NCBI GenBank assembly: GCA_963281155.1
Contig: CAUJLY010000003.1
Span: 5,332,001-5,396,000 of the forward strand
DNA length: 64,000 nt
From: Rhabditophanes sp. KR3021
Taxonomy: Eukaryota > Nematoda > Chromadorea > Rhabditida > Alloionematidae
Reading direction: 5' to 3'
Below, piece by piece: positions 35,854 through 59,150 of this stretch (positions within the stretch are counted from its first letter, which is position 1; each line of letters opens with the position of its first letter). Below the pieces are notes generated by a model, which was given only the letters and a program-made list of their open reading frames with translations, was not told the origin of the DNA and searched no databases. Made by a program: the position numbers and the translations under genes.

Positions 35854-37592
35854 ATGCATCGCGATAACTGTAAAATTTATATTGGCAATTTGCCTGAAGA
35901 TTTCCGTGAGAGAGATGTCGATGATCTATTTTACAAGTTTGGAAAGATCAGAAACATTGAAGTCAAAGGAAAGAGAGGAGGTTCTGCTTTTGCTTTCGTT
36001 GAGTATGATGATCCAAGGTAAGAACACAGTCTAGACTAACAACTATTGTTTGTCTGTTTTTATCTCTTCCTTTTTTAATATTTGTTCTTTTTAGAGATGC
36101 TGATGACGCAATTCGCGGTAATTTTAAATGATAAAATCGAAAAATGGGGTTATCTATAATCTTTTCATTCATTCAAATGCTTTGCTTACTGCTCAATTAA
36201 AACTAATTGAGCTTTCTGTGAGTCAAGCTCCAATTATTCAGATAATTTTTAAGTAGGATTAGAGCTCTTTATTAAAATAATACACAAATTAAGATACGAT
36301 TATTGATGTTCTTTACAATGAAACTTTGTCAAGGACTCTAACCCCAGCAACCCATCTTTTTAGAACGTCTCCCATGATTGTTTTCATATCCCCAGCTTTA
36401 GAATGGGGGATTCTAGTGAGGTGGAGTCCTTTCTATTAACAGTACTTATTCTTTATTCCATCATAGCAGCATTGCCTCTCAAAATTGGCAGCTCCATTTT
36501 GAGGACTTCGTGGTTTGAGTTGATATCCATCATCAATTTCGACCAACAAATCTTCTCCATGTTGCTTTTGTTTCCAAATGACATTTTCAGGCTCTTCATC
36601 CTCACTCGATAGATCCATCACTTCTGCTCTCGTTTTTTTAATTGAAGAAGCTTGTTCCATTTGAGGTGAACCTTTTTTTAGACACGATGAAGCAGCAAAA
36701 AATTAAAATGATTTAATGGTGTCTTTGTACCCCTCATATGCTAACATTTGATGGTAGGGACACCTGTAATTTCGGTGTGGATTTTTTAAAAGCATCATCT
36801 TCGATCAAACACATCTTAAAAAGACGCTAAAAGGGAGGGTTGTTTAAAAAAATGATTATTTATGTTTTGCATATCAATAATGGGTCCATTTTAGATCGTG
36901 ATGGTTATCGTGTTGAAGGAGGCCGCATTCGTGTTGAAGCCATCAAAGGAGTAGGACCAAGAGGCCGTGGAGGCGAACCCGTCAAAGGAGATCGCAACGA
37001 CTTCCAAGACACCAGATCGAAGAGAAATCACAACCGCCAGCTTACTGGCTTTAGGATCGAGGTGTCTGGACTTCCTTCCTCTGGATCTTGGCAGGATCTA
37101 AAAGATCATATGAGAAAGGCCGGAGAAATTTCATTTGCAGATGTTTTCAAGGATGGAACTGGAATAGTCGAATTCCGCAGCGCTGACTCGGTAGATAAGG
37201 CCATTCGCGACCTTCACGACACCAAATTCAAGTCACATGAAGGTGAGACGGCGTATATTCGTGTCAAGAAGGGAAAGGCTGAGGGCAGTTCCCATGGCAA
37301 GTCTAGATCCCGTTCTAGATCCAATAGTGCCCATAGCGCTAGAAGTGTGAGTCCCCGTCGCTCCAGATCTCGCAGCCACTCTTCTGTTAGAAGCGGAGGT
37401 CCACGCCGATCACCTTCCCAAGATCGCATTGAAAAGTCACACTCCAAGTCTCCTCGTTCTAAAAGTCATTCCAAGTCCCGTTCTCCATCTGTAGATAGAA
37501 GAAGCGGAGGATCAAAGAGTGACAGCCCAGCCTACGACCGAGGAAATTCTCAAAGCCGTTCTCCATCCAAGAGCCCCAAGGCAGATGATTAA
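35854..37592 (+). CDS. rsp-3: SR splicing factor, SRSF1/RSP-3 type
   Basis: Nuclear pre-mRNA splicing factor. Exons 35854-36017, 36095-36117 and 36895-37592; the last intron is 777 bases, unusually long here, and hosts an antisense gene. Seen: RRM1 with RNP2 KIYIGNL and RNP1 [10 protein letters not shown]; the [15 protein letters not shown] end of RRM1; a Gly/Arg-rich linker; a pseudo-RRM2 with the diagnostic [13 protein letters not shown]; and an RS domain of about 90 residues with repeated [18 protein letters not shown] and [18 protein letters not shown] identifies the SRSF1 subgroup. The start codon is 3 bases after the acceptor TTTTTAG. About 240 residues in total. Confidence 0.95.
36313..36660 (-). 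CDS. antisense gene nested in the SR-factor intron, unknown product
   Basis: Exons (minus) 36660-36446 and 36412-36313, joined by a 33-base gt-ag intron; 104 residues. Coding character is clear in both exons: an acidic N-terminal part ([20 protein letters not shown]), then [20 protein letters not shown], and exon 2 with [20 protein letters not shown] then [10 protein letters not shown] before TAA. The two exons come into one frame only with this intron. A minus-strand AATAAA lies at about 36268-36273, inside the same host intron, so the gene has its own 3' end. No signal or membrane segment. Family not recognised. Confidence 0.6.
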
Positions 37593-38194: not shown

Positions 38195-40358
38195 ATGTTT
38201 AAAGGTGGCGAGGTTGGTGATATTATTATTTATTCACGTATTGACATGGCATTGGCTACTGACTTGGAAAAGGACATCCTGGAGTCAGTTGCGAAGAATC
38301 TGAAGAACAATGATTTCCATTGTGGAATTATTAGTCAGCCCGGGTTCGTCATTGAAACTACCACAACATCTGACGGGGTAATAGAATGCAGTATTGAGAG
38401 TAGTGTTGTTAATTCGAAGTGTTGTCGTTACGACATTTACTTCGTCGACATCCCACTTGAAATTAAATTAAAGGCAGTTAAATGGGCAAGGGCGCAACTT
38501 GGCGTTCAGTATAACCATGTTTTTGATCCTCTTTCATGCTTTGAAAATAAATCAATCAAACTTTATTGTTCTCAATTAGTAGCAGAAGCATACAAGTTTG
38601 CTTCAAACGGAAGAGAAGTGTTTGTGTCAAAAGTTATGGAGTTTGGTGTTTTGGAGAACAGGGTAAATTTGTTATTAATCCTTATTTGTCTTACCATACT
38701 TGTATTTACTTAATTAGGGCTGGAGGAAATATTTCAAACAGCATGACAGACAAGTTCCCGTTAATACTTTAGGAACACACCCCCACGACTTTCGCCTATC
38801 CGAGCACACGAATGTTGTGTACAGCGAGTGTACTGACATTAACCTAAAAATGGCATCCAATAAACTATTAATTCCTAAAGATTTGTGTGCAAAATTGAAC
38901 TTTGTCTCCAACAAATTAGTCGAGCCCACCAATTGCATACTGTTAGCACCAAGCTTGTTATCTCCTCGCAATGGCGGCTCTTCCAACCAACCGATGCAAT
39001 TTGGTGATAAAAAGTTTGTAAGTGATACGGTGTGTGTCGCAAAAGAAGCGCATGCGACATATAAAAAAACGTCTCTCGATTTTAGAAAGACCATCTTTCT
39101 GAGAGTTGGGAGAAATTTGAGAGAAAGAGTGGCCGATATCGCAAAAATGGAGACGAAAGATAATGGAAAACCGATTACAGAGTCCATTGCCGACGTCTTG
39201 TCTGCCGCAGATTGCGTAGAGTTTTTCGCGTCTTCAGACATTTCGGGCAAGTCTTTTCCTTTGGATCCGGAAAATGGGCAAATCGCTTATACAGTTAGGG
39301 AATCTTTTGGTGTAGTTGGATGCATCGGGGCATGGAATTATCCTATTCAGACAGCGATGTGGAAAATTGCCCCAGCCTTGATTTGTGGCAATACTATTGT
39401 TTACAAGCCAAGTCCTTTGACTCCAATGACTTCAACTCTACTGGGCTTGATTTTTGCTCATTCGGGACTTCCAGCTGGAGTCTTAAATATAATTCAGGGA
39501 GATGCTGAAACGGCTGAACAAATTTGTCTCAATGAAGATGTCAAAAAAATTTCATTTACCGGAAGTCTCAAGACTGGCCGTCAGATTCTGCAATTATGTA
39601 GTTCGAAGATGATTAAGCCGGCAACTATGGAATTAGGAGGAAAGGGGTCATTGGTTATTTTTGAGGATGCAGATATTGAAAGTGCTACAAATTGTGCCTT
39701 GATGGCAAACTTTTACAGTCAAGGACAAGTTTGCTCGAATGCCTCAAAAGTGTTAGTTCATACTTCTATTTTGGAGGAATTCACTGAAATGGTTGTGAGT
39801 AAAACAAAGAAAATGGTTATTGGAGATCCATTAGATGAAAAAACTCACGTAGGAGCTTCCATCAGTGCTGAACATCTACAAAACGTCAAGAAATTCATTG
39901 ATGATGCCGTAACAGACGGGGCAAGAGTTTTGTGCGGAGGAGAATTTGTGATTCCAAGTGAGAAACTAAAGAATGGCTTTTATATTAGTCCTTGCATATT
40001 GACTGATGTAAACCCATCTTCTCGAGCGTACAAGGATGAAATATTTGGTCCAGTCATGCTAATTATTCCTTTCTCCACAAAAGAAGAGGCAATGGAGATT
40101 GCTAATGAATCAAAGTTTGGCCTGGCTCACGGAGTGTTTACAAACAAACTCGACATCGTCCATCAGTTCATTGACGCACTTGAAGCTGGAACAGTGTACG
40201 TCAACACTTTCAACAACACAAGTGTCCATGTTCCTTTTGGTGGGATAAATCAGTCAGGCTTTGGCAGGGAACAAGGTCATGCAGCAATTGAGGCTTGGTC
40301 TCAGCTTAAGTCTGTTTACATCAACACGACGGGTCAATTGAAGAATCCTTTCGAATAG
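38195..40358 (+). CDS. fusion of a YiiX-type papain-like amidase domain with an ALDH9-type aldehyde dehydrogenase
   Basis: Exons 38195-38662 and 38718-40358, intron 55 bases, phase 0, 702 residues. N-terminal domain (1-200): GDIIIYSR, DFHCGIISQPGFVIETTTTS, WARAQLGVQYNHVFDP and LYCSQLVAEAYK. This is the circularly permuted NlpC/P60-like fold of the YiiX/C92 amidases, with likely catalytic His42, Glu54 and Cys125. Exon 2 begins GWRKYFKQHDRQVPVNTLGT, the end of the same domain as judged by the paralogue at 41085. The frame then runs with no stop through ATG 38850 (residue 201) into a complete aldehyde dehydrogenase: GAWNYP (Asn363), SFTGS, MELGGKGS (Glu461), GQVCSN (Cys495), DEIFGPV and VPFGGINQSGFGRE. 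It is closest by eye to ALDH9/betaine-aldehyde enzymes. Internal initiation at 38850 would give a separate 502-residue ALDH, so fusion versus two products needs transcript evidence. Confidence 0.8.
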
Positions 40359-41084: not shown

Positions 41085-41779
41085 ATGGTGTTTCTTGGTT
41101 TAGAAGGTGGAGATATTATTATCTACTCACGTACATATAAAAAGGATAAGAATTCTTCTGATTTTGGGGACTCTATTGCCTGTTCTTCGAGTACTTCCGG
41201 TGTCAAAAAGGATAATGATTATCATTGTGCGCTGGTTACTAAGTGTGGATACCTCATTGAAACAACAACTAATGAGAATGGTGTACACGAGGTTGGTTAT
41301 GATGAGGGGATATGTGCGAAAGATGTAGTTATAATTAGTTACTTCCACGTAGAGCTCCCGGTAGAAAAAAAGCGTAAAGCCGTAGAATGGGCTAGGGCAC
41401 AGATTGGAATCAAATACAATTATTGTTTTGATCCATTGTCGTGTTTTAATGACAAGGTAGTTCAACTTTACTGCTCGCAACTTATCGCGGAGGCTTACAA
41501 GCATGCTTACGAAGGAGAGGAGCCACCATTTCCTGAAAGCATCATGGCATTCAACTCTTCAACCGTTGGGGTAAAAAACAAATATTTTAATTGTCAGTAC
41601 TTAGAATTGTTTTTTAGTTTTGGGAGAAATACTATGGGGATTATAACAGACCTATTCCAGTAAATACACTTGGAACTCATCCAAATGATTTCAGGAAATC
41701 TGAACATGTTAAATTTATTGGCAAAGAAGAAAGTAATGGAGATATGCTTTGTATCACTGACGATGGGAAAGAAATCTAA
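41085..41779 (+). CDS. stand-alone YiiX-type papain-like amidase
   Basis: Exons 41085-41570 and 41618-41779, intron 47 bases, phase 0, 215 residues. Paralogue of the N-terminal domain of the preceding gene: EGGDIIIYSRTYKKDK, DNDYHCALVTKCGYLIETTT, AVEWARAQIGIKYNYCFDPL, VQLYCSQLIAEAYKHA and, after the same intron position, PIPVNTLGTHPNDFRKSEHV. Likely catalytic His47, Glu59 and Cys130. Unlike its neighbour it stops about 25 residues after this block, with no ALDH part. Proteins of this fold hydrolyse amide or ester bonds, and bacterial members act on peptidoglycan or lipids. The substrate here is unknown, and there is no signal peptide. Confidence 0.7.
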
Positions 41780-42147: not shown

Positions 42148-43665
42148 TTACACATACGGCACAATTCCTTCTGTCAGGATTAAAAATTGGAGGAGCGTGT
42201 GTTGTTGTTGAGGTAGGGAAGGAATGATTCCGGAACAAAATACTGTTGGCGAGAAGATTGTCGAGATGTTCGCTACACTCATCTTGTTTTTGTCGGCGTT
42301 TTTGGCTACATTGCGGAGATGGCAGAGGAGAGCTTCTAGAGTGTAGCAGTTGCATTTATCAAGCATACCCAATGCTTTTCTCACATTCTTCCCTCTCTCT
42401 ATTGTATTTGAGGATCTTTCGTAAGCTTCGCAAAGGATTTGGAAATTTGAAAAAGGCACTAGTTGTTGGGGCAGGAGTCTTAGGTAGAGTTTTAGTAGGC
42501 CTGCTACAGTGTGGATATCATCTACTTCTTGCAAATTCACAGAAGTTGGATTTGTGTCAAATTGTTTCCGCAGCCTGTCCATCTGCTCATGGGACGCAGA
42601 AACTCGATAAATTCCTTCCATCTGAAGGCCTCTCCTTTCAACTTCAATTATACATTGCTTAAAAACAGGGGCTATCGTGACAGAATGTGCTATACACAAC
42701 GTTGTCAGGTCCACTGCAAACATTCGTTTAACATACTTGGCCTCTGGTCTACAATCTAATCTAGCTTTTTCACTGCACTTTTTATGTGCTGCAAAACTAC
42801 AATTCGTACATCGGTAACCATTTGAAATAATCCCCCACAAATAATTCCTGCAATAATCGCAATAATGGGGCATTTTGAAGGTAAAGGATTCAAAATTATG
42901 CGCTCTCTTCATTTCACTTCCTAACAACTCCATCAGATTATCACTATTTGTGGCATTTTTCTGATGTAACGAGTATGGAGATTGATCATACTCTGCCTCA
43001 TCAGCCATCTTTTTGATATAATCCGCAGCGTATTTCTCCATAAACATTGAAATTAGGCCGTCTGCTACCATGAGATCAAGGGATTCGAATCTTTTTCTCC
43101 CACATAGTGGTTTCCATCGTAATAGAGTTTAAAATGTAGGATTTGTTTGTCGAATAGAAAACATAGTGTATTTGCGTCTGCTGATCTTTTGGAGGTTCTT
43201 ACAAGGTAGGAACCCTCGCCTGCTTCTCTCAGAAGCTAAATTAAATAATTATTATCATTACTAAGAAATATGGGAGTAATATGTATTCATAAAACTAAAT
43301 AGCTGACATTAATTTCATCAATAGCTGACAGTAATTTCATCAATAACTAACATTAGTTTTATCAATAGCTGACAATAATTTCATCAATAACTAACATTAG
43401 TTTTATCAATAGCTAACATTATTTTTATCAATAGCTAACATTAATTTTAGCAATAACTAACCTTTTCAGCTTCCGTTCTCTCAATCAAACCATGGTACTC
43501 AGCCCCATACTGCTCCGGCCTATTTGCGATAAATTTGCGGCAAGGAATTTTAAAAGGTTTGGGTGCGCGATCCTGCAAAACTAGTAAATTATGTTTCCAA
43601 TAGCCATCCACAATGTTTGTATCATCTGTGTCGTTAAGTGTGCTCCGATTATAAGATTCAGACAT
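42148..43665 (-). CDS. chin-1: chimaerin-type RacGAP (SH2-C1-RhoGAP), with an apparent one-base frameshift
   Basis: Diacylglycerol-responsive GTPase-activating protein for Rac. Exons (minus) 43665-43462 and 43235-42148. Seen: an SH2 domain (YHGLIERTEAEK, GEGSYLVRTSK, LYYDGNHYVGEKRFESLDLM), a C1 domain (HNFESFTFKMPHYCDYCRNY, then NGYRCTNCSFAAHKKCSEKA) and a RhoGAP domain with the arginine finger in MEGIYRVSA and VDDIHTVAGLLKLYLRLLP. The SH2 frame breaks at a run of five A on the coding strand (43092-43096). One extra A restores the conserved GEKRFES and the whole downstream frame (430 residues). A homopolymer sequencing error is the likeliest cause. Intron 1 contains a 22-base minisatellite that supplies the splice donor. 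Confidence 0.88.
43298..43461. repeat. 22-base minisatellite, about 7.5 units, reaching the chimaerin 5' splice site
   Basis: Consecutive 22-base units starting at 43298, 43320, 43342, 43364, 43386, 43408 and 43430, with a partial unit at 43452-43461. Consensus AATAGCTGACATTAATTTCATC, with a variant AATAACTAACATTAGTTTTATC. On the coding (minus) strand the partial last unit is the actual donor GTTAGTTATT of chimaerin intron 1, so several units contain donor-like GTTAG sequences. Confidence 0.85.
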
Positions 43666-56428: not shown

Positions 56429-59150
56429 TTAGGCAGTGAATCTTTGACCGTGAAGATTAGTTTCTCCGTAAGTTAAAAGTTTGTTCAAACTCTTCAAGTC
56501 GATTTGCCCTTCTTCCGTCATCTTCAGACGAGCTTGATCTTCCTTTCTCATGATGTTGAAGAGATAGTTTCCTCTTTTAGCTAATTCACCGGCTTGATAT
56601 ATTGGCTCTGGGAGAGAGACGGAGTTGGTAATGATTTGGTGAGAGTAGGCCAAACTCAAGATCAATCCTTGGCATTCGTCCAAATTCATGTCCACTTCAT
56701 TGACAATCATAGAGTACTGTGGAATTTTGGAGGTTCCGATGACGGGGCGATGAGCTTGAAGGTAGAATTCCGTGTAGTCCGCACGAGTACACCCACTGTC
56801 AATAACGACTCCTGTAACAAAGTTCGTGGAAATGAGATTTTCTTCGATGTTGAAGAAGCGCTTGTTGTGATGTTTGTTGACGACAATCATAACAAACCCA
56901 GGCTTGTATCCAGGTTCGAAATTTTCACAGGCACGACGAAGAGCAGAGAGCTCGAGTTCAATAGCAGTTTTGAATTGGACGTCAGTCAACCCATCACGAA
57001 GAATGATGATGTGAGCAGGAAGTTTGTTGTCCTTCGGGCGGTTTTGATTCCTTTTCTTTAAAAGGTTAGTGAAGGTGTCCTCTAGCATGACTGGATCAAT
57101 TTCGTGTTTCCTCCCAGTTTGGAAGAAGAAATCTCCAATGAACTGATGTGGATCAGAACCGAAGTTAGCACTGAAGCCAACGATCGAGGGGTCTCCGGTA
57201 CACTTAGGGTGGGAAAGAGAGTACCCTACCACCAAATTACTGTCCTTTGACATACAGAACTTTTCAGCGGCCTTCTCAGCTTCACAAATAATGTTGATAC
57301 CACCATTCTTGACATTCATCTTGTTGATCACATTGGCGAGAGATTGTCTTTGTCCTTTCTCCAAGATTCCTTTGCATAACTCAGTAGTGACTTGTTGAGT
57401 CAGGATGCAATATTTAGTTTCATAATACTTCAGCAATTCGTGGGACGTGATGACTTTTGGTTCGATGTGCATAACAAATCTGATTTTCTTGTTGGCGAGA
57501 TCCTTTATGGCTTCTTTCAAACTAGTGAAGTCTCCATTAAGTTCCCTGACTTCCATAGGCTTTTCGACTTTCATTCCTTTTTCACTACACATTCTCATTA
57601 GTTGGTCCAAAAACTGACTGGCGTCTCTTCCGAACTCTCTGTTGTAGATAAGAGCCCAGGATTCAATCTTAGCAGGGGAGTAAAATGGCTGACGGAAAGC
57701 ATCGCCGAAAGACCCTTTTTCATCAGGGAAGACTTCTCCCTTGCCAGACCTAAGGATTGGAGGGTGACGGATGCCCAGCTTGATGGTCACTGCATGTGGG
57801 TTCAAAGACATCTTAAACCCTTTCATGATCTTGTTTGACTCATTGAGAAGGCCAAGACCCATGAGGTGCTTGATTATCTCATTTTTACGGATGTAAGGCT
57901 TGACAGTATTATTGGATTGCTGAGAAGCGGAGGCATCACTATCCATCCTGTTCAAGGGTACGGTTTGCCCACTACAGATATTCATGTGACACATAGGATA
58001 GAAATTCTCCTGGCCTCTGGACTTGACGACCACAGCAGGGATCTTAGTTTCAGTGATTCTAATCTTGTAGGCGTCTTGGTAATAGTCTACGATTCTTGTT
58101 TCAGCCTGGTCATCTTTCCTCATAATCAAGGTACCAATATCGGCATCAGACAACTCTTTTAGCTTGTAACTTTCTCCTGCATTGCGATAGTTAGGAGTAA
58201 TGAGGACGTTTTCCAAGTGACACAAGACATCATTCCATTTAGCTTTGCTGAGCTTTGAAACATCGTTCGTTTCCGTCATGTCTCTAATGATATCCAACAA
58301 ATTTCCAGCCTTGTAGAAGACATTCTTAGACATATCCAAGAAAACAGCAGGTCTGACTTTGTCCTCATTAGAAGCGTCAATGAATCTTACACTCTTGCAT
58401 ACACCGGGCTTCAAGATCTTTCCATGGGAGATTGGCTCGTCAAATTTGGTGTCAGACATGTGGAAGGTCCGATTGTTATTTGAAAAGTACATGTTGTTGT
58501 TGATGGCGAACTGAGATGTAATCATCTCCAAGCAGTTATGAACTAACTTTTGCTTGTGACTCAAAGCTCCATTCAAAAAGATATCTTTGTTTCCGATGGG
58601 CACTTCGAAATCTTCGTCGCACTTGGCAATCTTGACAATAACGTCGCAGGACCTAATTAATCCACGGCATTCTTTAGTAAAGTTTTCCGCCTTTAGTTGA
58701 AGGTTTAGTTCATCGGTGGGCTTGTTGTTGTTGGCAGTGACTTTCTTGTTGGTAATCAGATTAGCGACTCCGTCGTACGCATAGACCAAACACTCGTCAC
58801 CACTTTCCTTGATCAAGAGTTCTACAGCCCGACAGCAAGTATCCTTTCTTGTCTGTTTTGATCCAATCAATTTTCTAAAGGAACAAATTATCATTTCCAT
58901 TGAAGACACAGATAACTTACACAGCAAAATCGTTAGTGGAGGTTAAAACCTTGTAGAATGACCCTTCGTTCTTAGTTAGCGCTACTTGGACAGTGTAGCG
59001 ATAAGCCTTGGCGTCATTTGAAATGGTGAGCGGGAAGGCAGAGGCTTGTCCGATCAGTGTGTTCTTGAAGATTTTGGCAGCAGGTAACTTTTTGCAGATG
59101 GAGGTTTCCTTCAAAGCATCTGTAATCTCGCTAATAAGATCGAGATCCAT
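56429..59150 (-). CDS. Argonaute, probably worm-specific (WAGO) type
   Basis: Small-RNA-guided silencing protein. Exons (minus) 59150-58921 and 58874-56429, a 46-base intron, 891 residues. The N-terminal, PAZ and MID regions are divergent (SRGQENFYPMCHMNICSGQT lies at the PAZ/linker end). The PIWI domain is clear: NLVVGYSLSHPKCTGDPSIV, HIIILRDGLTDVQFKTAIEL, GFVMIVVNKHHNKRFFNIEE, SGCTRADYTEFYLQAHRPVI, GTSKIPQYSMIVNE and LSLAYSHQIITNSVSLPEPI. The usual first catalytic Asp (G-x-D-V-x-HP) is Ser near residue 628, while the later Asp (RDG, about 704) and His (about 822) are kept, so slicing is probably lost. This, with the divergence outside PIWI, suggests a WAGO that binds secondary siRNAs. Almost intronless and G/C-richer than its neighbours, consistent with strong expression. 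Confidence 0.9.

Follow-up and report, generated by a model that had tools for sequence, protein, structure and literature searches.

A Peptidase_C92 domain fused to an ALDH9-type aldehyde dehydrogenase in Rhabditophanes and other nematodes

The osmolyte betaine also serves C. elegans as a neuromodulator, and the aldehyde dehydrogenase ALH-11 helps to make it; normal betaine levels require alh-11, the food-search defects are rescued by alh-11 expressed from its own promoter, RIM-only expression restores dispersal and food leaving, and a betaine supplement rescues forward speed (PMC9860315). In the marine nematode Litoditis marina, alh-11 goes up with salinity (PMC9025465), a response that might be expected of an osmolyte-making enzyme. 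Here we consider a gene at positions 38195-40358 (forward strand) of a 64,000-nucleotide stretch of DNA from Rhabditophanes sp. KR3021 (hereafter the window), which encodes a Peptidase_C92 (YiiX-like papain-fold) domain followed, on the same chain, by an ALDH9-type aldehyde dehydrogenase. The fusion is present in the DNA and conserved in the protein models of other species, with the catalytic residues of both halves kept and all fusions falling in one clade. Judging from the DNA and the protein models, the gene is probably the R. diutinus orthologue of alh-11, joining an N-terminal C92/YiiX thiol acyl-hydrolase domain of circularly permuted papain fold, which may be an optional module, to an ALDH9-type dehydrogenase that the gene may also make as a separate second product.

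Structure and integrity of the fusion gene

KR3021 corresponds to Rhabditophanes diutinus (Nematoda, Strongyloidoidea, Alloionematidae), as named in PMC7738172, which also mentions transcriptome data for the species, and the v.2 assembly is given as 44.8 Mb in 6 scaffolds (PMC10676810); the genome that we used for profile searches has 44,845,725 bases in 6 contigs. The first-pass annotation of the window had described, at coordinates that prove exact, an amidase domain that runs in frame and without a stop into a dehydrogenase after a single phase-0 intron, and the gene has just this structure. Exon 1 (38195-38662, 468 bp) holds the start codon and most of the C92 domain (residues 1-156, with His42, Glu54, Tyr106, and Cys125). 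It is followed by a 55-bp GT...AG intron in phase 0 (38663-38717), and then by exon 2 (38718-40358), which comprises the C-terminal block of the C92 domain (38718-38795; residues 157-182, ending ...PVNTLGTHPHDFR), a linker, the entire aldehyde dehydrogenase (Aldedh domain at 38997-40316, residues 250-689, with Asn363, Lys386, Glu461, and Cys495), and the stop codon (40356-40358). The spliced product is 702 residues long with no internal stops. Pfam recognizes both domains on this one chain, Peptidase_C92 at residues 50-181 (28.5 bits, cut-off 27) and Aldedh at residues 250-689 (E = 3.7e-147), and alignment places the six catalytic residues named in the annotation (His42, Glu54, Cys125, Asn363, Glu461, and Cys495) where it had put them; both domain identities were likewise right. 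At gathering scores, the window has no Rfam match.

UniProt contains a nearly identical protein from the same strain (P0001, 702 residues), which is 100% identical over residues 1-200 and differs from the window product by a single mismatch in the dehydrogenase half (Arg in P0001, Gln in the window). An assembly slip is therefore an unlikely origin of the fusion, and we reject assembly or gene-model error as its source.

Spread of the fusion among nematodes

A search with the dehydrogenase half returned 7,995 matches, of which the best 120 were taken into the homologue counts and the tree. Many of these listed homologues carry both Pfam domains, mostly at lengths of about 680-750 residues. To count C92 copies we aligned 46 proteins (the first 45 listed, plus P0002, a stand-alone C92 paralogue described below), accepting a copy when its residues filled over 120 of the 200 columns that cover the C92 part; 35 qualified, namely 34 fusions and P0002, and the C92 motif was absent from the remaining proteins among the 121 examined. 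Thus 34 of the best 120 homologues are fusions, C. elegans ALH-11 included. The 30 fusions with a species name represent 29 species (KR3021 among them), all of them nematodes, with examples in C. elegans, Strongyloides stercoralis, Bursaphelenchus, Meloidogyne, Steinernema, Ascaris, Necator, Haemonchus, and Pristionchus. We can accordingly dismiss the idea of a fusion special to Rhabditophanes. The first-pass annotation, whose author knew of no described enzyme with this architecture, was mistaken as to its existence: the architecture is that of a conserved nematode gene with an experimentally studied orthologue.

In a tree of the 120 listed proteins (built by a quick method and rooted at the midpoint, with no outgroup), all 34 fusions lie within one 44-row clade with support 99, which we refer to as the ALH-11 clade and which includes the dehydrogenase half of the window protein. 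Within it, the window protein groups with Strongyloides and Parastrongyloides, as expected from the species, and the clade as a whole adjoins further ALDH9-like proteins of nematodes as well as animal ALDH9A1. C. elegans ALH-11 (P0028, 687 residues; gene F36H1.6) resembles the window protein in having both domains in the same order, the same clade, the kept residues, a methionine between the domains, and a Glu at the third place of the C92 triad, but its overall identity to P0001 is 43%. The text of PMC9860315 mentions neither papain, amidase, nor fusion, and the word "domain" occurs in it twice, both times in the reference list; nor did we find the fused C92 domain described in the titles and abstract starts of open-licence literature on alh-11, on C92/YiiX, or on papain-fold domains together with aldehyde dehydrogenase. 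The remaining interest of the gene lies in its unexplained C92 half and its conserved internal methionine.

Two halves and a tandem C92 copy

The dehydrogenase half keeps the catalytic Asn, Lys, Glu, and Cys of its family. Its best PDB sequence matches are 6qak (residues 54-492 of that half) and 1a4s (57-492), of the ALDH9A1 / betaine aldehyde dehydrogenase type. These enzymes share the four catalytic residues with the fusion, but they have no N-terminal C92 domain, and ALDH9A1-type rows fall outside the ALH-11 clade. Scores fall below the cut-offs of the NCBIfam models for bacterial betaine-aldehyde dehydrogenase (TIGR01804, 453.6 vs. 668.6; NF009725, 492.8 vs. 593). Because of these missed cut-offs, the exclusively nematode origin of the named clade rows, and the adjacency of the clade to animal ALDH9, we rejected the acquisition of a bacterial betaine-aldehyde dehydrogenase as a whole. 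Going by orthology and the published work on alh-11, this half would convert betaine aldehyde to glycine betaine.

Peptidase_C92 (YaeF/YiiX) proteins are defined by the permuted order His - polar - Tyr - Cys, as set out in PMC3142127. The C92 half has this permuted papain fold, with His42, Glu54, Tyr106, and Cys125 in the expected order, and by conservation and place Tyr106 is probably the catalytic Tyr. The active-site Cys, His, and Tyr are kept in all 35 C92 copies. The third place of the triad holds His in 25 of the 35, and Glu in both the window protein and C. elegans. Human PLAAT/HRASLS (LRAT-like) proteins also have a permuted papain fold; these phospholipase-acyltransferases use a His-His-Cys set, which the third-place His of the 25 copies resembles. 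Cys125 and His42 could take a lipid-like substrate into an acyl-thioester, which would make the C92 half a lipid amidase, esterase, or acyltransferase. The half might alternatively be a lipid-binding or membrane-targeting module and not a working enzyme in the fusion, as would suit both its faster change relative to the dehydrogenase and its varying third polar residue; as mere binding would have no need of the Cys, His, and Tyr kept in every copy, the paralogue included, we regard this as somewhat unlikely. A full-length predicted model (pLDDT, the predicted local distance difference test score, 77.9, falling below 50 at residues 651-688) was left out of any reading of contacts between the domains.

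The same domain occurs by itself in tandem downstream. This stand-alone C92 gene, in which the His, Glu, Tyr, and Cys are kept, has its exon 1 at 41085-41570 (forward strand); a 47-bp intron (41571-41617) matches that of the fusion gene in place and phase, and exon 2 (41618-41779) supplies the end block and then a stop, near the point at which the fusion enters its dehydrogenase. The product (UniProt P0002, 215 residues; Peptidase_C92 at 32.8 bits vs. the cut-off of 27) is about 45% identical to the C92 half of the fusion, and the Pfam C92 profile finds only these two genes in the KR3021 genome, where only the best candidates were scored. Partial tandem duplication of the fusion gene would best account for this locus. 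Its retained active site argues for a C92 activity apart from the dehydrogenase, and the existence of the copy would fit such an independent activity. Among described members of Peptidase_C92, E. coli YiiX (2if6) and B. cereus BcPPNE (3kw0) differ from the fusion in having no dehydrogenase attached, and show about 19% identity to the model of the paralogue. With the amidase part of the 702-residue chain as query, P0001 was the sole match, and with a two-sequence amidase alignment the sole match was P0002; the dehydrogenase search then gave 33 more fusions, and therefore both amidase searches are too insensitive to exclude stand-alone C92 relatives elsewhere.

The first-pass annotation had tentatively proposed a hand-over of substrate, in which the amidase or esterase half frees an amine or an alcohol, here taken to be choline-like, whose aldehyde is oxidized by the other half. 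The presence of both domains on one chain in many nematodes is in keeping with this proposal, as is the plausibility of lipid-type substrates for C92, and a GMC-family oxidoreductase match, which occurs once in the KR3021 genome, is a candidate for the enzyme converting choline to betaine aldehyde. Choline, however, requires an intervening dehydrogenase step that is not on the fusion chain, and both the C92-only paralogue and a possible dehydrogenase-only product speak for halves that can function separately, so that we consider the hand-over unlikely. Also present in the genome is a second ALDH9-type gene; its best matches are P0049 and Strongyloides ratti P0048 (66% over 323 residues).

The internal methionine and a possible second product

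Between the two domains lies an internal ATG (38850-38852, forward strand; Met201, context CTAAAAATGG), a possible start of a 502-residue dehydrogenase-only product; its counterpart in C. elegans P0028 is Met185. Start contexts are usually A-rich, and by this rule the context at 38850 is better than that at the first start. A methionine is present in the linker of all 34 fusions (32 of 32 in the alignment used here, A2, plus P0042 and P0046, which lie outside it), and in those 32 fusions the first linker methionine stands 34 to 45 residues before the next conserved block. When 24-residue windows are moved along the 702-residue reference from residue 6, only the ten starts from 180 to 189 have a methionine in all 32 rows, and these ten are poorly conserved (mean identity 0.28-0.34); relative to the mean, the rates of change are 2.0 for the linker, 1.5 for the C92 half, and 0.77 for the dehydrogenase. 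We simulated 24 sites along the tree, with no indels and 2000 runs per setting. When the root had no methionine, no run reached 32 of 32 at either the linker rate or half of it. A single root methionine gave 0 of 2000 such runs at the linker rate and 2 of 2000 at the halved rate, and three root methionines gave 2 of 2000 and 82 of 2000, respectively.

The retention of a methionine in all 34 fusions points to an added dehydrogenase-only product, as would the separate 5' end near 38840 that the first-pass annotation had named as grounds for refuting the fusion; a second product from Met201 would, in fact, leave the fusion standing. Such a product is the simplest reading of the pattern, which we infer having already seen it. 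In the other ten of the 44 rows of the ALH-11 clade, the chain is shortened or holds the dehydrogenase alone (P0016, P0017, P0018, P0024, P0025, P0027, P0031, P0040, P0043, and P0104); these rows may be losses, isoforms, or truncated models. Panagrellus, Panagrolaimus, and Globodera are among the genera with dehydrogenase-only models. Six dehydrogenase-only models (P0017, P0018, P0024, P0025, P0027, and P0040) start, by eye, at or near the place matching Met201; P0031 and P0104 begin otherwise, and P0043 is incomplete.

These dehydrogenase-only models and the A-rich context at 38850 would also suit two adjacent genes misread as one, an amidase gene next to a dehydrogenase gene that has a trans-spliced 5' end of its own, in which case no fusion protein would exist. 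Yet the frame stays open for 546 codons between the stop that precedes exon 2 and the one that ends the dehydrogenase, the amidase has its conserved end block in the dehydrogenase exon, and the fused chain appears in the protein models of 29 named nematode species, KR3021 included. The mutated C. elegans residues are numbered 351-353 in PMC9860315. These numbers are close to 345-347, where the same AAI stands in the 687-residue P0028, and distant from the position that it would have in a dehydrogenase-only chain; the published numbering therefore fits the long chain. Two separate genes are thus highly improbable. Inspection of 38700-38900 by eye for a trans-splice acceptor upstream of Met201 gave only weak-looking candidates, from which nothing was concluded.

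We return to the reading that we favour, an alh-11 orthologue in which the C92 domain would be an optional module of a betaine enzyme that either feeds the enzyme, tethers it to lipid, or carries out separate work, and in which the gene would also yield a dehydrogenase-only product from the internal methionine. Several points count against it. Ten rows of the clade show no fusion; some simulation settings did reach 32 of 32 (2, 2, and 82 of 2000 runs), and the methionine pattern was seen first and then tested, with simulations that had no indels. The NCBIfam cut-offs were missed, and the C92 half evolves at about twice the speed of the dehydrogenase (relative rates of 1.51 vs. 0.77). In the C. 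elegans study, moreover, much betaine persists in the alh-11 mutant, possibly supplied by ALH-9 and by bacteria, and identity to the human enzyme compared there is 27% for ALH-11 and 65% for ALH-9 (PMC9860315).

More tentatively, alh-11 may be a nematode-wide two-product gene, making a long C92-dehydrogenase and, from the internal methionine, a short betaine-aldehyde dehydrogenase; the C92 domain would then work on lipids as an acyl-hydrolase or transferase and, in the long form only, place or couple betaine synthesis at lipid membranes, and Rhabditophanes would later have split off its C92 copy. A working C92 domain would give betaine synthesis in nematodes a lipid-linked partner reaction on the same protein, and if the internal start is true, the betaine enzyme can be made with or without the C92 domain. 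Both halves can be mutated separately in C. elegans, where the role of the C92 domain is thus directly testable.

We note in passing several neighbouring frames, characterized by eye. The frame at 36831-37592, on the strand of the fusion gene and just upstream of it, has an RRM-like part and an arginine/serine-rich tail, resembling an SR protein; as the S. stercoralis fusion P0004 bears the label "RRM domain-containing protein," the two genes may be neighbours in that species too and have been merged in its model. On the reverse strand, 42148-43128 has a chimaerin-type look, with a RhoGAP-like part after a cysteine-rich lipid-binding domain, and 56429-58942 is an 837-residue frame of Argonaute/Piwi-type appearance.
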